Source: Kineothrix sp. IPX-CK (GTDB taxonomy: Bacteria > Bacillota > Clostridia > Lachnospirales > Lachnospiraceae). From it: a stretch of 64,000 nt of DNA. Positions 5,205-56,882 of the stretch are shown here, one piece after another (the first letter of the stretch is position 1; every line of letters begins with the position of its first letter). The translations under genes and the position numbers were made by a program. The notes below the pieces were generated by a model. That model ran no database searches. It had not been told where the DNA came from and was given only the letters and a program-made list of their open reading frames with translations. The stretch lies in assembly GCF_039134705.1 (NCBI RefSeq), contig NZ_CP146256.1:2108001-2172000 (forward strand), given 5' to 3'.

Positions 5205-5951
5205 ATGGCAGGTAAAATATTATCGAAATATGTGATACCGGGGAATAGAGTTGATATAAGGGAGACGCGAAAGAAAAAAGGGAAAGAAGATGAGACTGAG
5301 GCTCGAATCTATCAAAGTCATGTGTATGACGTTCTTTCTGAGGACCGAATAGAAGTTGTGATGCCTATGGAAAAGACGAAGATTATTCTACTTTCGATAG
5401 GCAGTGAATTCGATTTGTATTTTTATTTGACGGACAGTGTTTACCGATGCCGTGCGAAGGTAGTCAACAGAAATAAGAAAAATAGCACTTATCTTTTGAC
5501 TATGGATTTGATCAGTGATTTAAGGAGGGATCAGAGGCGGGAATATTTCAGGTTCAGTTGTGCACTGGAGATGAATTCCAGAGTTCTTGAGCCGGACGAG
5601 ATAAAGGCTTTGGAAAAAAGGGATAAGAAGGAGTTCAATACTCCGGGGCTGCCGCTTAAAAAAAGTATCATCGTGGATATCAGCGGAGGCGGGTTGCGCT
5701 TTGTGGCAGATTTTAAATATGAAGCGGGCAGCATGCTGCTTTGCAAATATCAGTTGGATACGGAGAATGGTACCAGAGTATACGAATTGACTGGAAAAGT
5801 TCTCAGCGTGAAAGAGGTGGAGAATCGCCAGGAAGTATACGAGCATCGGGTACAGTATATGAATATCGATAAAGATGTGCGGGAAGAAATCATTCGATTT
5901 ATTTTCGGTGAAGAAAGAAAGAACTTGAGGAAGAAAGGTGAAAATCTATAG
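5205..5951 (+). CDS. PilZ-domain protein, YcgR/DgrA-like c-di-GMP receptor
   Basis: A 248-residue soluble protein with the two-part layout of flagellar brake proteins: an N-terminal YcgR-type beta domain (residues about 10-95) and a C-terminal PilZ domain. The c-di-GMP-binding signature is present: the arginine-rich DQRREYFRF (RxxxR, near residue 110) and DISGGGLRF (D/NxSxxG, near residue 158). YcgR-type proteins slow or stop the motor when bound to c-di-GMP (established knowledge). Being inside the fla/che operon supports a motility role. An HD-GYP protein that could lower c-di-GMP is encoded at 51483-52562. A 157-nt gap with a candidate promoter separates it from cheB. Confidence 0.88.
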   Translation: MAGKILSKYVIPGNRVDIRETRKKKGKEDETEARIYQSHVYDVLSEDRIEVVMPMEKTKIILLSIGSEFDLYFYLTDSVYRCRAKVVNRNKKNSTYLLTMDLISDLRRDQRREYFRFSCALEMNSRVLEPDEIKALEKRDKKEFNTPGLPLKKSIIVDISGGGLRFVADFKYEAGSMLLCKYQLDTENGTRVYELTGKVLSVKEVENRQEVYEHRVQYMNIDKDVREEIIRFIFGEERKNLRKKGENL

Positions 5952-6045: not shown

Positions 6046-6108
6046 CATTATAGGTAAAAGATTCCAAGTGAAAAGCAGAGCCGAAAAAGGATAGTGGAGC
6101 TTATGAAC

Positions 6109-6708
6109 ATGAGTATAGGTCAGGTACCGGGCGGTAAGATCGTGGCGATCGCCAGTTCTACCGGCGGACCGAAAGCTTTACAGGCAGTGATTACGAAGTT
6201 GCCGGCAAAGTTGAACGCTCCGATAGTTATCGTGCAGCATATGCCGCCTGGATTTACGGCATCTTTGGCGGAACGGTTAAATACGCTGAGTGAGTTAAAT
6301 GTAAAGGAAGCCAGTGAAGGAGATGTTCTGGCGGCAGGGAGCGTTTATATTGCCAAAGGCGGAAAGCATCTCAACATCCGTTATTCGGGGAACCGTCATG
6401 TGGTATATTATACGGACGAACCGAATAGAGAGGGCGTAAAGCCGTGCGCTAACTATATGTATGAATCGCTGTCGGAAAGCCGGTATGGCGAAGTAGTATG
6501 TGTAGTTATGACAGGAATGGGCGCTGATGGAACGAAGGGAATCACTTATCTGAAAAAACAAAAGAAAACACATGTCATTGCGCAGGAGGAAGAGAGCTGT
6601 GCGGTATATGGAATGCCTAAGAATATAGTGAATGCCGGGCTTTCCAATCAAATAGTTCCTCTTGAACGCATTGCGCAGGAAATAATCACGAACGTGGGGG
6701 TAATTTAA
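6109..6708 (+). CDS. cheB: CheB methylesterase domain protein without receiver domain
   Basis: CheB removes methyl groups from chemoreceptors and deamidates them. Only the C-terminal catalytic domain is present (199 residues from ATG 6109; usual CheB is about 350). The catalytic triad regions are intact: the Ser in SSTGGPKAL, the His in VQHMPPGFT, and the Asp in GMGADGTKG. ATG 6109 is preferred because GGAG lies 9 nt upstream; GTG 6094 and ATG 6103 are in-frame alternatives adding a few residues. In-frame sequence upstream reaches a stop at 6055-6057 without receiver-like residues, so the REC domain is truly absent. Its stop is 1 nt from cheA. A full-length CheB is encoded at 52605-53624. Confidence 0.9.
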   Translation: MSIGQVPGGKIVAIASSTGGPKALQAVITKLPAKLNAPIVIVQHMPPGFTASLAERLNTLSELNVKEASEGDVLAAGSVYIAKGGKHLNIRYSGNRHVVYYTDEPNREGVKPCANYMYESLSESRYGEVVCVVMTGMGADGTKGITYLKKQKKTHVIAQEEESCAVYGMPKNIVNAGLSNQIVPLERIAQEIITNVGVI

Positions 6709-15962: not shown

Positions 15963-16898
15963 ATGAGCATCACGGCAGGAATGGTAAAAGAATTAAGAGA
16001 ATTGACCGGTGCAGGTATGATGGACTGTAAAAAGGCGCTTACCGAGAACAACGGCGATATGGAAGCTTCCATAGAATATTTAAGAAAGAATGGTCAGGCT
16101 AAGGCTGAGAAGAAAGCTGGAAGAATTGCGGCTGAAGGACTTTGTCGCGTAGCTACGGACGGCGACAAATGTGCGGCGGTTGTTGAAGTTAATTCCGAGA
16201 CGGATTTTGTTGCAAAGAACGAAGACTTCCAGAAGTTCGTTGAGAATGTTGCAGAGCAGGCAGTAGCATCCAATGCGGCAGATATTGACGCCTTTATGAC
16301 TGAGGCGTGGAAAGAGGATTCTTCTAAGACGGTAAAAGAAGCGTTGGTAGAAAAGGTTTCTGTTATCGGCGAGAATTTGAATATCAGAAGATTTGAAAAA
16401 GTGGTAGCTGAGAACGGCTGTGTAGTAACTTACGTACATGGCGGCGGAAGAATCGGCGTTATCGTAGAAGCAACTACGGATGTTGTGAACGATGCGGTAA
16501 AGGAAGCTCTTACGAACCTCGCTATGCAGGTTGCTGCACTTTCCCCGAAATATGTATCTACTGAAGAGGTTTCAGAAGAATACAAAGCACACGAGAAAGA
16601 AATCATTGCAGCTCAGATCGCTCAGGATCCGAAAATGGCCGGTAAACCGGAGAAGGTTATCGAAGGCGCAGTATTAGGACGTCTGAACAAAGAACTGAAA
16701 GAGGTATGCCTCTTAGAGCAGACCTATGTAAAAGCTGATGACGGAAAACAAACCGTTGCTCAGTATGTTGCGCAGGTTGCTAAGGAGAACGGTGCCAATC
16801 TTTCACTGAAGAAGTTCGTTCGTTTTGAGACGGGCGAGGGTCTTGAGAAGAAGGAAGAGAATTTTGCAGAGGAAGTTGCAAAGCAGATGGGAAATTGA
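15963..16898 (+). CDS. tsf: Elongation factor Ts
   Basis: EF-Ts recycles EF-Tu by nucleotide exchange. The 311-residue protein starts with the UBA-like domain containing LRELTGAGMMDCKKALTENN, then the TDFVAKN motif and the two core dimerisation repeats. Length is normal. It is co-transcribed with rpsB and closed by the terminator at 16921-16955. In most Firmicutes pyrH follows directly; here pyrH is about 39 kb downstream. Confidence 0.98.
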   Translation: MSITAGMVKELRELTGAGMMDCKKALTENNGDMEASIEYLRKNGQAKAEKKAGRIAAEGLCRVATDGDKCAAVVEVNSETDFVAKNEDFQKFVENVAEQAVASNAADIDAFMTEAWKEDSSKTVKEALVEKVSVIGENLNIRRFEKVVAENGCVVTYVHGGGRIGVIVEATTDVVNDAVKEALTNLAMQVAALSPKYVSTEEVSEEYKAHEKEIIAAQIAQDPKMAGKPEKVIEGAVLGRLNKELKEVCLLEQTYVKADDGKQTVAQYVAQVAKENGANLSLKKFVRFETGEGLEKKEENFAEEVAKQMGN

Positions 16899-50044: not shown

Positions 50045-51493
50045 ATGGAACAAAAGAGTGTGATGGAAATTCTCATGCAGGAAGCGCTGGAAATCATTAT
50101 AGTTTTCGGTTGTGATGGAAATATTTTGAAATATAACAAGGCCGCCGGTGAAGAACTGGGATATGGAGAGGAACTATGCGGTATCAATATCGCGGAAGTG
50201 CTGCGGAAGGAATTCGAAGGCGGGAGCGATGTTGTAACTGTGATGGAATACTTGAAGAACCGGAAGGAGACGGCAGTTTACAGGGACAACGGCACCTGCT
50301 TTAGCGTCAGGCTCCATATAGAATATGACAATGAAAACTGCAGATATTTCTTGTTCGCTTTGAATATGGAAGTCAATCGGGAGATGGCCAACGAAGTATC
50401 ACGTATCAAGGAAGTTGCTTCCCGGGCGATGGAGGTTAAGAACGATTTTGTCGCCAATATCACCCATGAGCTGCGGACTCCGGTAAACGGAATCAGGGGA
50501 CATGTGGAAAATTTAAAGGATACATATCTTACAACGCAGCAGAGACGAACTTTGGATATCATAGAGCATTGCTGCAACAACATGTCCTCGATCATCAACA
50601 ACATTTTAGACTTTTCAAAATTGCAGTCGGGCAAGTTCGAACTGGAAAATCGTAAGTTCGATTTGCGGGAGATGATGGAAGATATTGTGTCGGCAAATCT
50701 TGCGACGATAAATGAAAAGGGGCTTAAGCTGACTGTAAACGTGGATGAAAGCGTTCCGCAGATACTGATCGGTGACGAGCTTCGTCTGACACAAATATTG
50801 AACAATCTGCTGTCTAATGCGGTGAAGTTCACCGCTGCGGGCTTTGTCCGTATTGAGGTTGCTGTGACATTTAGGTTCAGCGATGAAATAGAGCTGTTTT
50901 TTATGGTATTGGATTCTGGAATCGGTATTTCAAAGGAGGAGCAGGATTGTCTGTTCCAGAGCTTCTCTCAGGTGGATACGTCTATAACGAGAAGATACGG
51001 AGGAACGGGGCTTGGGCTTACCATCAGCAAGGAATTGGTGGAGCTTATGAACGGCAAGATATATTTGCAGAGTGAGAAAGGGCGGGGCAGTAATTTCTCC
51101 TTCTCGGTACGCCTCCATACGGCGGAGATGACAGACTGCAGGGCGGAATATAAAAAAGAAATCAAGCAATTTCTCGGACAGCACAGTGAGGAGGCACAAT
51201 ATAAACAAATCGAAGAATGTTATTGCTTCGGCTCGAAGGAAAACAAAAATGAGCTGGCTGGACGAATGGAAAAATTAGTGCTCTGCATTGAGCTGGGGGC
51301 GTGGGAAAAAGCGGAATTCTGGGCGGGAGAACTGTCCAAGCTGCTTAAAAACGCAGATACGGATGTAAAAAGGGCCGCTCTTAAGCTGGAAATGGCAGTC
51401 AGAAAAGAAGATTACGATAAGAGTATGCTGCTCTATGAAGATCTGGAACGGCTGATTTTGGAGAGAACCGGAGAGATGCACTATGGATGTTGA
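50045..51493 (+). CDS. Cytoplasmic PAS histidine kinase with helical C-terminal extension
   Basis: A 482-residue soluble kinase, no membrane helix. An N-terminal PAS domain (residues about 8-115; IIIVFGCDGNILKYNKAAGE) is followed by HisKA with the phosphoacceptor His141 in NITHELRTPVNGI, and HATPase_c with NLLSNAVKFT, DSGIGI and GTGLGLTIS. About 105 residues follow the ATPase and are predicted helical (EKLVLCIELGAWEKAEFWAG), resembling an Hpt or docking helix bundle without a clear acceptor His. It overlaps the REC-HD-GYP gene by 11 nt, so that protein is its most likely phosphorylation partner. Confidence 0.88.
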   Translation: MEQKSVMEILMQEALEIIIVFGCDGNILKYNKAAGEELGYGEELCGINIAEVLRKEFEGGSDVVTVMEYLKNRKETAVYRDNGTCFSVRLHIEYDNENCRYFLFALNMEVNREMANEVSRIKEVASRAMEVKNDFVANITHELRTPVNGIRGHVENLKDTYLTTQQRRTLDIIEHCCNNMSSIINNILDFSKLQSGKFELENRKFDLREMMEDIVSANLATINEKGLKLTVNVDESVPQILIGDELRLTQILNNLLSNAVKFTAAGFVRIEVAVTFRFSDEIELFFMVLDSGIGISKEEQDCLFQSFSQVDTSITRRYGGTGLGLTISKELVELMNGKIYLQSEKGRGSNFSFSVRLHTAEMTDCRAEYKKEIKQFLGQHSEEAQYKQIEECYCFGSKENKNELAGRMEKLVLCIELGAWEKAEFWAGELSKLLKNADTDVKRAALKLEMAVRKEDYDKSMLLYEDLERLILERTGEMHYGC

Positions 51494-52562
51494 AATGAAG
51501 AATCAGAAAAATGCGCAGATACTCGTAGTCGACGATTTAAAGATGAACATCCTTTTTCTTGAAAAAATCATAAGGAAGATGGGTCATGAGCCGCTTTTGG
51601 CCGCCAACGGGAAGGAAGCGCTGCAAATTGTCAGATCATCCTCTCCCCAGGTTATCCTGATGGATATTGCCATGCCGGAGATGAGCGGCTATGAAGTATG
51701 TGAGATATTGAAGAAAAATAAGAAGACCAGAGATATTCCGGTTATATTCATTTCTGCGATGGATTCCAGTGAAAGCAAAATCAGAGGCTTTAAAGCGGGG
51801 GCGGTAGATTTTATCGTAAAGCCTTTTGAACCCTTAGAGGTTACCATGCGAATTGAGAATCACCTGAAGATGTACAAGCTTCAGGAGGAAATGAAAGCCT
51901 ATAATTATAAGCTCAATTGTCTGGTGAACGAGCAGATGAAGAGGATAGAAGCAGAGCAGAAGAATATTTTGTATGCTCTTGCCAAGGTTACGGAGGGAAG
52001 AGACAATTCCATAACCAATCATCTGGAAAACATCAGGTACAACAGCCGGATTTTAGCGCAGAGCCTTCAGTTTAGTCCCCTTTTCGAGAAGGAGATCACA
52101 GCAGGGTTCATCGAAAAGATAGGTGTTGCGGCGATGCTTCACGACATCGGAAAAGTACAAATCCCCGACGAGGTGCTCTTAAAACCCGGGCAGCTCAATC
52201 GCGAGGAACGTAAGGTCATTAAACAGCATGCGGAAATCGGCGCTCATATATTGGAGGAAATTCATGAGAATGCGGAGAAGAATGATTTTCTTCCGATGGC
52301 GATCAATATCGCAAAGTATCATCATGAAAAGTGGGATGGCACTGGTTATCCCGAAGGTCTTAAGGGAAAGGATATTCCCCTCTGCGCAAGAATTGTTTCG
52401 CTCATCGATATTTTTGACACGCTGACGGGTGAGCGGTGTTATAAAATAGCATATACGATAGAGGAAAGCCTTAAGATTATTGAAGAATGCAAGGGAATCT
52501 ATTTCGACCCCCACATTGTGGACATATTTATGAAGGTACATAAGCAGCTGCGTCATAATTAA
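51483..52562 (+). CDS. REC-HD-GYP response regulator, c-di-GMP phosphodiesterase
   Basis: A 359-residue protein: receiver domain (residues about 10-130; acceptor Asp in ILMDIAMPEMSG, Lys in FIVKPFEP), a short coiled linker, then an HD-GYP domain with MLHDIGKVQIP, a conserved KYHHEKWDGTGYPEG (the GYP motif is intact), and metal-binding His and Asp residues. HD-GYP proteins hydrolyse c-di-GMP. Phosphorylation by the overlapping kinase probably controls activity (inference). The PilZ protein at 5205-5951 is a possible downstream reader. Confidence 0.92.
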   Translation: MDVEMKNQKNAQILVVDDLKMNILFLEKIIRKMGHEPLLAANGKEALQIVRSSSPQVILMDIAMPEMSGYEVCEILKKNKKTRDIPVIFISAMDSSESKIRGFKAGAVDFIVKPFEPLEVTMRIENHLKMYKLQEEMKAYNYKLNCLVNEQMKRIEAEQKNILYALAKVTEGRDNSITNHLENIRYNSRILAQSLQFSPLFEKEITAGFIEKIGVAAMLHDIGKVQIPDEVLLKPGQLNREERKVIKQHAEIGAHILEEIHENAEKNDFLPMAINIAKYHHEKWDGTGYPEGLKGKDIPLCARIVSLIDIFDTLTGERCYKIAYTIEESLKIIEECKGIYFDPHIVDIFMKVHKQLRHN

Positions 52563-52604
52563 TCGGCGGCACCACATATTTTCAGGCAGAAGAAAGGACA
52601 GGAT

Positions 52605-53624
52605 ATGCGTCAGATAAAAGTATTGATTGTTGAGGATTCCGTTGTATTTCGGAATCTTTTGGTACAAGGACTGAATGAAGATCCAAATATAGATGTAGTT
52701 GGCGTGGCGGGAGATCCTTTTGAGGCCAAGGACCTCATCCCGCAGTGTAAACCGGATGTTATGACTCTTGATATCGAAATGCCCAAGATGAACGGGATTG
52801 AATTTCTTCGAAAGATGATGCCTCAGTATCCAATGCCGGTAATCATGCTAAGCGGCATGGACGATAAGGTATTCGATGCAATGGAAGCGGGAGCGGTGGA
52901 TTTCGCTCACAAACCGGTGAACATGTCGAGAACCACTGTCAATGAGTTCATAAGGCAGGAGCTGATTGCCAAAATAAAAATTGCCGCCTCCGTAGATGTG
53001 AGAAAACTGCATCGAGCGGAAGTGAGCAGGCCGGTCAGATGGGACAGGCTGAGCAATAGAAACTGTATCATAGCTATTGGAGCTTCTACCGGAGGGACTG
53101 AGGCTATTTATGATATTATAAAGCATTTTCATAAAGATATTCCGGGAGTGGTTATTGTTCAACATATGCCCGCGGGCTTTACTGAGATGTATGCAGCCAG
53201 AATGAATAATCAGTGCGTGGTGGAGGTAAAGGAGGCCAAGGATGGAGATGCGGTGAAAAGAGGACAAGTGCTTATCGCTCCGGGCGGCTATCAGATGCGC
53301 CTTGTGAAATCCGGCTCAGAATACTGTGTGGAATGTAAAAAAGAGCAAAAAGTCAGTGGACACTGTCCGTCGGTGGACGTGCTGTTCGATTCGGTAGCGA
53401 AGACGGCGGGAGCAGATTCCATCGGTATCATACTGACAGGCATGGGAGGTGACGGTTCCAAAGGCATGAAGTCAATGAAAAACAGCGGAGCTGTCACCAT
53501 AGGACAGGACGAGGCGACCAGCGTGGTATACGGGATGCCTAGAGTAGCCTATGATATTGGTGCGGTGAGATACCAGTTGCCTTTATGTGATATAGCCCAC
53601 AAGATTTATAGCCTGTTGGAGTAG
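52605..53624 (+). CDS. Full-length CheB (receiver + methylesterase)
   Basis: A 339-residue CheB with N-terminal REC (VLIVEDSVVFRNLL; acceptor Asp in MTLDIEMPKMNG; HKPVN with the conserved Lys) and C-terminal methylesterase with IGASTGGTEAIY, VQHMPAGFTEMY and GMGGDGSKG. All catalytic motifs are present. It is encoded away from chemoreceptors, CheR or CheW, between a REC-HD-GYP protein and a single-domain REC. It may supply the phospho-regulated methylesterase that the flagellar operon's truncated CheB lacks. Confidence 0.93.
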   Translation: MRQIKVLIVEDSVVFRNLLVQGLNEDPNIDVVGVAGDPFEAKDLIPQCKPDVMTLDIEMPKMNGIEFLRKMMPQYPMPVIMLSGMDDKVFDAMEAGAVDFAHKPVNMSRTTVNEFIRQELIAKIKIAASVDVRKLHRAEVSRPVRWDRLSNRNCIIAIGASTGGTEAIYDIIKHFHKDIPGVVIVQHMPAGFTEMYAARMNNQCVVEVKEAKDGDAVKRGQVLIAPGGYQMRLVKSGSEYCVECKKEQKVSGHCPSVDVLFDSVAKTAGADSIGIILTGMGGDGSKGMKSMKNSGAVTIGQDEATSVVYGMPRVAYDIGAVRYQLPLCDIAHKIYSLLE

Positions 53625-53640
53625 AAGAGGGGGGAAAATA

Positions 53641-54036
53641 ATGAAGATACTATTAGCGGAAGACGACTTTGCCAGCAGAAAGTTTATGTACAAATATTTG
53701 AGCCGTTACGGAGACTGTGACATCACAGTAAACGGGCTAGAGGCATTGGAGGCTTTTCAAATGGGTCTCGCCGAAGGAGACCCTTATCAGCTTATTTGTC
53801 TGGATGTTATGATGCCGGAAATGGACGGTTATCAGGCTCTTTGTAAAATTAGGGAAATTGAAAAAGAGAAAGGGATAAAAGGAGACAAAGCTGTTAAAAT
53901 CATTATGACCACAGCGTTAAATGAGGAAAAAAACGTAAAGAAGGCCTTTAACATGAACTGCACCGCTTATTCAGGAAAGCCTGTCGACACGGAGAAATTT
54001 GAGCTTCTTTTGAAGAAAATAGGCTTGATCACATAG
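53641..54036 (+). CDS. Single-domain receiver protein (CheY-like)
   Basis: A 131-residue stand-alone REC domain. Acidic pocket AEDDFASRKF, acceptor Asp in LICLDVMMPEMDGY, Thr in IIMTTALNEE, and the conserved Lys in AYSGKPVD. It lies between full-length CheB and the P5-less CheA, so it is the likely phosphate acceptor of that kinase. Whether it binds the flagellar switch like CheY cannot be told. Confidence 0.93.
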   Translation: MKILLAEDDFASRKFMYKYLSRYGDCDITVNGLEALEAFQMGLAEGDPYQLICLDVMMPEMDGYQALCKIREIEKEKGIKGDKAVKIIMTTALNEEKNVKKAFNMNCTAYSGKPVDTEKFELLLKKIGLIT

Positions 54037-54062
54037 AACATTCTTACTGGAGGAGGAAGACA

Positions 54063-55367
54063 ATGGAAGGAAGCTATGGTTCCGACGGAATGCTCGATAT
54101 GTATTTATATGAAAGTTTTCAATTGCTGGAACAGATGGAGACGATAGTCCTTCTGGAAAAGAACGAAGAGTTTCTGGATGAAGAGAGCGTTCAGGAAATT
54201 TTCAGGATCATGCATACGATAAAAGGTACTTCCGGCATTATGATGTACGATAATATAGCGGCTGCGGCGCACAAACTGGAGGATGTTTTTTATTACTTAA
54301 GGGAGGCCTATTCGGAGGAGATAGCGGCAAAGGAGCTGACGAAATACATCTTTATGGTATCGGATTTCATCGAAGAAGAGCTGATAAAGATAAAGGAAGT
54401 GAGAAATCCGGATGGAGATCCGGAAGAGATCATAAAATGTATCGATATGTTTTTAGTGAAATGGAAGGCGAAAATACGGAAAGAGGGAGGGGAACTTCCT
54501 CCTGAAAACGTGTATGTGGAACCCAGCCAGTTCTATATAGCTCCCGCCGAAGAACGCTCGGATAAACTGCCTTCTATCATCGATCTGGGGGTGGAGCCAA
54601 GTCCGGGAGATTATGTAATCAAAAACAGCGTACAAAAGGAAGAAACTATCATAGGTGTCAGCGAAGGAAAACTGGATAGGCTGACAAGGCTTGTGGAAAA
54701 CCTGATGGAGGCCGAGAAAAATACGCCGGAGGAATCGGATTGGCAGGAAATGAAAGAAAAGCTCTTGAAAATAACGGATGAGCTGGAGGATACGGTAATC
54801 CAGATGAGAAGGACCTCCCTTGCAGGAACCTTTCGCAGAATGAACAGACTCGTATACGACGTTTCCAGAAAGCTGGACAAGGAGATAGAGCTAAGCGTTT
54901 CGGGTGAGGATCTGGAGGTTGACAGAAAAACGATCGTGTGCATTTCCGACTCGCTGATTCATCTGGTGCGCAATGCTGCTGATCATGGAATTGAAGGACC
55001 GGACGAGCGTTCGCAGGCGGGGAAGACAGAAAAAGGCAGGATTTCTATAGATGCAAAGTTAGATGACGGCATTCTCTCTATTTGTGTGAGGGACGATGGA
55101 AGGGGTATCGATAAGAGGATAATATTCGATAAGGCCGGCCGAAAGGGACTTGTACATAAGGATATTAACGAATATACGGACAAGGAAATCTACCGGTTCC
55201 TTACCTATCCGGGCTTTACCACAAAGGAGAAGGTGACGGAATATTCTGGTAGAGGAGTAGGGCTTGATGCCGTAGTGGGCGGACTTGAGAAAATAGGGGG
55301 AAGATTGGATATCGACAGCGTGCAGGGAGAAGGCACGGAGATGATTATGAGACTTCCGCATGCTTAG
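54063..55367 (+). CDS. CheA-like kinase lacking P2 and P5 domains
   Basis: A 434-residue CheA homologue (canonical CheA about 650-700). The Hpt domain has His51 in RIMHTIKGTSGIM. A short linker (residues about 140-195) replaces P2. Then come the P3 dimerisation helices and the P4 ATPase with HLVRNAADHGIE, RDDGRGI and GRGVGLDAV. The protein ends right after P4 (MIMRLPHA), so the CheW-like P5 needed for docking in receptor arrays is absent. It is last in the signalling operon and should phosphorylate the adjacent REC and/or CheB proteins. The input signal is unknown. Confidence 0.9.
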   Translation: MEGSYGSDGMLDMYLYESFQLLEQMETIVLLEKNEEFLDEESVQEIFRIMHTIKGTSGIMMYDNIAAAAHKLEDVFYYLREAYSEEIAAKELTKYIFMVSDFIEEELIKIKEVRNPDGDPEEIIKCIDMFLVKWKAKIRKEGGELPPENVYVEPSQFYIAPAEERSDKLPSIIDLGVEPSPGDYVIKNSVQKEETIIGVSEGKLDRLTRLVENLMEAEKNTPEESDWQEMKEKLLKITDELEDTVIQMRRTSLAGTFRRMNRLVYDVSRKLDKEIELSVSGEDLEVDRKTIVCISDSLIHLVRNAADHGIEGPDERSQAGKTEKGRISIDAKLDDGILSICVRDDGRGIDKRIIFDKAGRKGLVHKDINEYTDKEIYRFLTYPGFTTKEKVTEYSGRGVGLDAVVGGLEKIGGRLDIDSVQGEGTEMIMRLPHA

Positions 55368-55419: not shown

Positions 55420-55480
55420 ATATTAGAATTGTGTAAAGCAATGACGAAAGAAGTATCCGGAACAGATGGAGGAGAATGGT

Positions 55481-56185
55481 ATGGGTTTTTTTACGGATTT
55501 AAAAGATGATTTATCGCAGGCTGTGAACGAGCTGATGCCGGCGGATGGAAAGGCTCCCGATGAGCCTGTCAAGCCGGAAATTGTGACTACGCAGACTGAA
55601 GCGGAGAATTCGAAAGGGCAGTTTGGCATGACGGATTTAAACGAATCGTCGGATATCCAACCAAAGCCGGATACGGTAAATTATCATACGCCAGAGCCGG
55701 ACACGACAGAGAGAAAAGTGTCGGATGAAGTAGCTATAATAACCGCAGGAATGACGGTAAGAGGTGACATTTCTTCGGAGGGTTCCATGGACTTGGTCGG
55801 AACGGTCATCGGTAACATAGAGGTGCTCGGAAAGCTGAACGTTACGGGGTGTATACAAGGCGATTCCAGGGCTTCAGAAATTTATGCTGAAAATGCCAAG
55901 GTGACAGGGGAGATTAACAGTCAGGGAAGCGTGAAGATAGGAAACAGCTCTGTCGTTATAGGTAATATTTTTGCGACCAGCGCGGTAATCGCTGGAGCAG
56001 TAAAGGGAGACATCGATGTACACGGTCCAGTGCTTTTGGATTCTTCAGCGATTGTCATGGGCAATATCCGTTCGAAGTCGGTGCAGATCAACAACGGAGC
56101 GGTTATCGAGGGTATGTGTTCGCAGTGCTATTCCGATATAATTCCGGCGAACTTCTTCGAAGAATTCAATAAAGGGAAGAAATAA
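55481..56185 (+). CDS. Bactofilin (polymer-forming cytoskeletal protein)
   Basis: A 234-residue bactofilin. An N-terminal extension of about 85 polar residues precedes the beta-helical polymerising domain (AIITAGMTVRGDISSEGSMD...VIGNIFATSAVIAGAVKGD), ending with a short charged tail. ATG 55481 has GGAGGAG 6 nt upstream; an in-frame ATG at 55466 overlaps it. Bactofilins BacE and BacF are needed for flagellar assembly in B. subtilis, so a link to motility or cell shape is reasonable. It ends 1 nt before pyrH and directly follows the CheA-like operon. Confidence 0.88.
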   Translation: MGFFTDLKDDLSQAVNELMPADGKAPDEPVKPEIVTTQTEAENSKGQFGMTDLNESSDIQPKPDTVNYHTPEPDTTERKVSDEVAIITAGMTVRGDISSEGSMDLVGTVIGNIEVLGKLNVTGCIQGDSRASEIYAENAKVTGEINSQGSVKIGNSSVVIGNIFATSAVIAGAVKGDIDVHGPVLLDSSAIVMGNIRSKSVQINNGAVIEGMCSQCYSDIIPANFFEEFNKGKK

Positions 56186-56186
56186 C

Positions 56187-56882
56187 ATGAAAAAAATTTT
56201 ATTAAAGCTCAGCGGTGAAGCTCTTGCCGGCGATAAGAAAACGGGGTTTGATGAAGAAACGGTCAGAAAAGTGGCATTGCAGGTTAAGCAACTTGTAGAG
56301 GACGGTATTCAGGTCGGAATCGTGATCGGAGGAGGTAACTTTTGGAGGGGACGCTCCAGCGAAAATATCGACCGAACAAAGGCGGATCAGATAGGTATGC
56401 TGGCTACAGTGATGAACTGTATATATACCTCCGAAATTTTTCGTTCTGCCGGAATGAATACGGAGATACTTACTCCCTTTGAATGCGGTTCCTTTACGAA
56501 GCTTTTTTCGAAGGACAGGGCCAATAAATATTTTTCACAGGGAAAGGTAGTGTTTTTCGCTGGAGGAACGGGTCATCCTTATTTCTCCACGGATACGGGA
56601 GTGGTTCTTCGTGCGGTAGAGGTGGAGGCCGAGGTCATTCTGCTCGCAAAGGCGGTGGATGGCGTTTATAATGACGATCCGAGGAAGAATCCGGATGCGA
56701 AAAAATACGGGGAAGTGACTATCGACGAGGTAATCGCCAAGAACCTTCAGGTGGTGGATATGACCGCTTCTATTTTAGCGAGAGATAATAAGATGCCTAT
56801 GTGGGTGTTTGGTTTGAATGAGGAAAACAGTATTGTAAATACTGTGAAGGGAAATTTTAACGGAACAAAGGTAACGGTATAG
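56187..56882 (+). CDS. pyrH: UMP kinase
   Basis: PyrH phosphorylates UMP to UDP in pyrimidine nucleotide synthesis. The 231-residue amino-acid-kinase-fold protein begins MKKILLKLSGEALAGD and has GIVIGGGNFWRG, the AGGTGHPYFSTDT nucleotide-binding loop and VYNDDPRKNPDAK. The start is 1 nt after the bactofilin stop, so translation is probably coupled. Normally it follows tsf directly. Confidence 0.97.
   Translation: MKKILLKLSGEALAGDKKTGFDEETVRKVALQVKQLVEDGIQVGIVIGGGNFWRGRSSENIDRTKADQIGMLATVMNCIYTSEIFRSAGMNTEILTPFECGSFTKLFSKDRANKYFSQGKVVFFAGGTGHPYFSTDTGVVLRAVEVEAEVILLAKAVDGVYNDDPRKNPDAKKYGEVTIDEVIAKNLQVVDMTASILARDNKMPMWVFGLNEENSIVNTVKGNFNGTKVTV

Follow-up and report, generated by a model that had tools for sequence, protein, structure and literature searches.

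The 64,000-nucleotide (nt) stretch of DNA analysed here (the window; positions 2,108,001 to 2,172,000 of contig NZ_CP146256.1) comes from Kineothrix sp. IPX-CK, whose genome is a single contig of 4.72 Mb, and it carries a compact five-gene signalling operon on the + strand that ends in a CheA relative without the P5 domain. The first gene (50045..51493) encodes a PAS-type histidine kinase with HisKA and HATPase domains and a C-terminal four-helix domain; HisKA and HATPase are assigned by Pfam, PAS by the predicted fold alone. It is followed by a REC-HD-GYP response regulator (51483..52562; REC and HD_5 in Pfam), whose HD and HHE...GYP residues are intact in the residue alignment, by a CheB with receiver and methylesterase domains and an intact catalytic triad (52605..53624; Pfam and residue alignment), by a stand-alone CheY-like receiver (53641..54036; Pfam REC and residue alignment) and by the CheA-like protein (54063..55367; Pfam, alignment and fold). 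The first two genes overlap by 11 nt and the remaining gaps measure 42, 16 and 26 nt; recomputing the open reading frames gave the same five genes, coordinates and spacing as an earlier sequence-only reading of this DNA. That reading had also called the PAS kinase soluble and the operon free of CheW, CheR and receptor genes, and the analysis supports it on both counts: strongly hydrophobic segments are absent from all five proteins, and none of the three gene types is found in the operon. Nor does this strand carry a CheW or receptor gene anywhere within 6 kb; both exist elsewhere in the genome. A promoter and terminator scan gave counts no higher than chance.

What kind of CheA closes this operon? 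Its P1 domain matches Pfam Hpt (2e-12) and aligns the phosphorylatable His51, and its P4 ATPase domain has the N, G1 and G2 boxes by Pfam, alignment and fold. The best PDB matches of the predicted fold (mean predicted local distance difference test score, pLDDT, 74.6) are a CheA P3P4 structure (4xiv) and CheA P4 structures. Judged from sequence and model, the protein is a CheA relative by clear common descent. Aligned with full-length CheAs it stops at the P4/P5 junction, and a Pfam scan at E<=10 finds neither P2 nor a CheW-type (P5) domain in it; the same scan of a full-length relative matched P2, H-kinase_dim and CheW. P1 and P3 are 70 residues apart in the window protein versus 196-202 in four full-length proteins measured. 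Is P5 encoded nearby? Stops stand in all three forward frames of the gap that follows the gene, and the loss of both P5 and P2, proposed from the letters alone, is borne out. A P5 supplied by a separate gene was also rejected: of the five CheW-type domains found in the genome, none in the operon, two are those of the flagellar CheA and CheW, two those of the CheA and CheW of a second chemosensory cluster, and one that of a 306-residue CheW-plus-receiver (CheV-like) protein. P3 escapes Pfam even at E<=10; alignment and the predicted model, where a helical hairpin appears, point to a shortened P3. Between fixed anchors it spans 58-62 residues in 60/60 other CheAs of the alignment and 51, 51, 50, 50, 50 and 36 residues in six of the 7 P5-less proteins. 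P3 length thus seems to have been freed together with P5, as expected if array geometry stops constraining it.

According to the excerpted text of a survey by Berry, Andrianova and Zhulin (2023, PMC10782961), a CheW domain (P5) is present in 100% of 13,673 CheAs, P1, P3, P4 and P5 are defined as the core of the protein, and receptor, CheA, CheW and CheY form the core of a chemosensory system. P1, P4 and, to judge from alignment and fold, P3 are common to this canonical CheA and the window protein, which differs in having neither P5 nor P2. The same excerpt states that CheA is recognised by HATPase plus CheW and that the archaeal set was gathered with a CheW query (PMC10782961); such a method favours P5-bearing proteins, and P5-less CheAs could therefore escape it.

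Where does the operon come from? A homologous Lachnospiraceae cluster is complete at 12 loci, with genes for the histidine kinase, REC-HD-GYP, CheR, CheB, REC, CheA, CheW and a receptor within 6 kb, and the genes that it shares with the window operon stand in the same order. It is a direct relative, distinguished by CheR, CheW, a receptor and a five-domain CheA, all missing from the window operon. Around 26 full-length CheAs, a set with at least 3 kb of downstream sequence that includes other cluster types (e.g. Desulfonema and this genome's second cluster), CheW and receptor genes were each found in 24/26 cases and CheR in 16/26. Around nine P5-less CheAs (ten short frames minus L057, whose 5' side is cut by a contig end), CheB is present in 9/9 and the histidine kinase, HD-GYP and REC in 6/9 each, and CheR, CheW and receptor genes are each at 0/9, two of these loci (L095 and L174) having just 1.6-2.1 kb of downstream sequence. 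This comparison makes the window operon a reduced chemosensory cluster and no new assembly. Going beyond the sequence-only reading, its ancestry can be traced to a complete, receptor-coupled type of cluster, and this type survives in relatives. That cluster is present in G401, G400 and G404 (L101, L102 and L105; complete in the first two, cut by the contig start in L105), and no flagellar CheA is among the matches listed for these three genomes, so it may serve more than flagella. The window genome has its own second, complete chemosensory cluster (L051 8913-18001 and L052 16-1481; G000:C1 about 358.9-369.5 kb), with genes for REC, CheA, a 1172-residue hybrid kinase, REC, CheW, a receptor, CheR and CheB. 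Genome-wide there are 42 receptor-domain matches above the cut-off, two CheR proteins, one of them in the second cluster, and two CheAs besides the P5-less one.

P5-less CheAs occur in at least 12 genomes of three genera: 6/16 genomes of the window genus (one of them, G402, with an in-frame stop), 2/2 of a second genus and 4/6 of a third, whose other two members, G413 and G386, gave no match at the threshold used. Both outside genera were found via short frames, picked by eye, among 397 family genomes, and lower-scoring P5-less genes may be missed. The sequence-only reading had proposed looking for the five-gene neighbourhood in Lachnospiraceae; it is found in the same order in seven genomes of the three genera (the window genome, K. 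alysoides, G402, G290, G411, G087 and G412), and its arrangement is therefore not chance. Partial loci lie at contig edges, with four genes in G415 and CheA alone in G414. In G407, G408 and G409 CheB and CheA stand by themselves upstream of pyrH, and a full-length CheA of the complete type is encoded elsewhere. At each of the P5-less loci counted it is CheB, rather than the c-di-GMP (cyclic di-GMP) branch, that has been retained. The matches listed for the window genome, K. alysoides (G397) and G402 include no full-length CheA orthologous to that of this type of cluster, nor was one found at the thresholds used in G290, G411 and four third-genus genomes. Further apparent cases (G622, G649, G665, G272 and G334) were rejected, as their short frames run into contig ends; the short CheA frame of G333 ends 87 nt before one. 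A stand-alone Hpt gene, identified by Pfam, lies upstream of pyrH in L153 (266-622), with similar frames in L156, L157, L159 and L120, all from genomes of the same genus without the P5-less operon; G290 and G411 likewise have a separate Hpt gene ahead of the operon.

Did P5 disappear once or twice? The P5-less clusters of the window genus and the third genus form one clade, with support of 100/100 for CheB and for the concatenation and 91.4/98 for CheA alone. Those of the second genus group with the full-length clusters of the window genus (100/100, concatenation). The concatenation, which covers 8 P5-less and 17 other clusters and assumes a shared history, rejects a single origin in the approximately unbiased (AU) test (p=1.6e-20); CheA alone (p=0.113) and CheB alone (p=0.228) do not. 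Two independent origins are thus probable and favoured by the sequences, yet unproven, because the single-gene tests do not reject one origin and the concatenation presumes the shared history. P2 is still present in one protein of the second genus and in one of the third, and hence the main clade lost P5 before P2. Within the window genus the P5-less gene lies near pyrH on both sides of the species tree (rooted at its midpoint), a pattern suggestive of vertical descent followed by losses. Truncation in place of the genus' own complete cluster was rejected: G407, G408 and G409 carry both forms, and the tree from the concatenation places the main P5-less clade away from the full-length copies of the genus.

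The PAS kinase of the sequence-only reading is supported by the predicted fold (mean pLDDT 68), whose N-terminus is PAS-like and whose structural matches are LOV-histidine kinases, and not by Pfam, which makes no PAS call in the window kinase; an orthologue gives a PAS_9 match of 9e-4, under that family's cut-off. Its H-box His is conserved in 10/10 clusters. The terminal four-helix domain (residues ~395-475), conserved among the aligned cluster kinases, looks by eye like an Hpt minus the histidine. The operon CheB, above cut-off for NCBIfam PRK00742 and PRK12555, has the Ser-His-Asp triad and a receiver, and receiver residues and triad are invariant in 14/14 clusters. The REC aspartates and lysine are kept in 11/11 clusters (the fourth site is T or S) and the P1 His in 13/13 clusters whose piece covered P1. 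By its sequence the window HD-GYP protein carries the residues expected of a c-di-GMP phosphodiesterase. Three of the 11 clusters checked (those of the window, K. alysoides and G402) have the motif intact, as the earlier emphasis on c-di-GMP would have it; at least one residue is changed in the other 8/8 (five P5-less, three full-length), which weakens that emphasis, some gaps being possibly alignment artefacts. With HD-GYP residues varying while the CheB sites are invariant, CheB would be the steady output and HD-GYP activity optional. All five genes are under purifying selection: their K. alysoides orthologues are 87-92% identical to the window proteins, and the ratio of non-synonymous to synonymous substitution rates (dN/dS) is 0.12 for the kinase, 0.07 for HD-GYP, 0.08 for CheB, 0.04 for REC and 0.10 for CheA, with 0.02 to 0.15 in comparable neighbour genes.

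Several observations touch on motility. In G290, flgM, flgN and flgK lie directly downstream of the operon (Pfam), and in G411 flgN-like and flgK-like frames do. The flagellar operon of the window, outside the five-gene operon, encodes a CheB that sequence comparison shows to be without a receiver (6094..6708, + strand). The flagellar CheB is receiver-less in 7/7 main-clade genomes that have the five genes or a locus of this type cut by a contig edge (the window genome, G397, G402 and four third-genus genomes), and also in G406, which lacks the operon. The receiver is kept in the 31 other genomes examined: 20/20 sampled other Lachnospiraceae, judged by size and alignment rather than Pfam (20 of 21 loci; L211, with no flagellar CheA shown, was left out), nine further members of the window genus, among them G407-G409, and both second-genus genomes. 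Two receiver losses are separated in the flagellar CheB tree with moderate support (85.7/86). The association between operon and receiver loss is suggestive only, because it consists of two events and one exception.

Parts of this picture have parallels. In the excerpt of PMC3868531, the Che3 system of Rhodospirillum centenum has, like the operon here, a separate histidine kinase, a CheA and a CheY-like receiver, with CheB and a non-chemotaxis output, and it provides an earlier example of a CheA that works with a separate kinase; unlike the operon it has receptor, two CheW and CheR genes, its CheA3 and CheS3 are hybrid kinases, and no HD-GYP figures in that excerpt. The F3 class of Campylobacterota (excerpts of PMC9321776 and PMC9239204) has an auxiliary CheB without a receiver, like the flagellar-operon CheB of this window, and differs in a CheA with an extra receiver and a cheVAW operon. 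No relevant description of a CheA without P5 or CheW was found in the open-licence literature, nor was the arrangement itself, in agreement with the earlier view that it is not a described system: the parts are known, and what the open-licence literature searched does not describe is their receptor-free, P5-less combination.

How would such an operon work? The explanation that we prefer, and to which we give an even chance, is an array-detached chemosensory pathway where a P1-P3-P4 CheA, together with a PAS-type kinase, acts on CheB and a CheY-like receiver and tunes the receptors of other arrays; the sequences show its gene content, ancestry, domain losses, conserved residues and purifying selection, and we infer every phosphate route in it, and its physiological output. 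The ancestor was a complete cluster of histidine kinase, REC-HD-GYP, CheR, CheB, REC, P1-P2-P3-P4-P5 CheA, CheW and receptor. The P5-less form has lost P5, CheW, CheR and the receptor, P2 went afterwards in the window genus, and with these losses control of the window CheA by an array of its own would no longer be possible. The PAS-type kinase would replace receptors as input, and the P1-P3-P4 protein, using the P4 that it carries or serving as a P1 shuttle, would give phosphate to the CheB and CheY-like receivers, the HD-GYP receiver being a further branch. Phospho-CheB would then demethylate receptors of the cell's other arrays, and so adjust chemotactic gain or bias to an internal state; HD-GYP of the window lineage may additionally lower c-di-GMP.

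A number of observations weigh against this explanation. The single-gene tests of origin and the changed HD-GYP residues given above are two. The seventh P5-less CheA (L164) has a P3 of 59 residues. In G407-G409 the locus is without histidine kinase, HD-GYP and REC, and the P4 G1 box of the P5-less CheA is altered (D to N, G to E or K) with P1 kept; to judge from the sequences, the full-length paralogue could phosphorylate this P1 in trans. In G402 an in-frame stop splits CheA, leaving P1 in one frame and P3-P4 in another (L006 9986-11317), which may be fission, decay or an assembly error; this protein is absent from the trees, and its 3' piece alone entered the dN/dS and residue comparisons. 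G406 lacks both the operon and the receiver of its flagellar CheB, and in the second genus the operon coexists with a receiver-bearing flagellar CheB.

Some of these observations would suit other explanations. Might the P5-less CheA still be tied to arrays, its P3 pairing with a full-length CheA or its P1 being phosphorylated in trans, like natural short CheAs? G407-G409, with altered P4, intact P1 and a full-length paralogue, would fit this, and the window genome has two other CheAs. However, the P3 that is shorter in 6/7 P5-less proteins than in 60/60 other CheAs should hinder pairing, and the full-length orthologue is missing, within the scope given above, from the window genome, G397, G402, G290, G411 and the four third-genus genomes; we regard such array linkage as unlikely. 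The split G402 gene, the altered G1 boxes, the HD-GYP changes in many relatives and the operon losses within the window genus could also mark a decaying remnant, a complete cluster lost gene by gene and caught as an intermediate without dedicated function. Set against the dN/dS of 0.04-0.12 that all five genes show in the comparison with K. alysoides, the invariant CheB and receiver sites and the retention of the same genes across three genera, decay appears quite improbable. The kinase and HD-GYP protein might, lastly, be an ordinary two-component c-di-GMP pair beside a separate che unit, as their 11-nt overlap and the reduction of the G407-G409 locus to CheB and CheA would allow; as both are encoded beside che genes in complete clusters and again in each of the two P5-less lineages, we think this slightly less probable still.

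Other features of the window lie outside the array-detached pathway proposed here. The flagellar/chemotaxis operon also encodes a YcgR-like PilZ protein (5205..5951, + strand; Pfam PilZNR and PilZ). A bactofilin (55466-56185) downstream of the five genes was set aside as a member of the system; G406 has nupQ, bactofilin and pyrH at the site (L152 5418-7239) with all five che genes absent. The genes tsf and pyrH are often adjacent in other bacteria; in the window they are ~39 kb apart (15963-16898 and 56187-56882).

What does this mean for chemosensory pathways? More broadly, and only tentatively, since we lean against it on balance, such pathways would evolve more than once to stable receptor-free forms by losing P5, usually P3 length, receptor, CheW and CheR; the P1-P3-P4 kinase and CheB would become a cytosolic module setting the methylation of other arrays, and the flagellar CheB of some members of the lineage would then cede its receiver, handing over phospho-control of adaptation to that module. 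P5 is regarded as universal to the CheA core and the receptor array as what controls CheA, and CheA searches based on the CheW domain would overlook P5-less proteins, a likely blind spot. If true, a selected and recurrent lineage without P5, CheW and receptors in its cluster would mean that the kinase-methylesterase core is workable off arrays. The constraints that P5 and P3 impose could then be studied in a natural system, and one would have to ask how a pathway can set the adaptation of another. In these Lachnospiraceae, cut-down chemotaxis machinery may perhaps have been rewired to an internal sensor.

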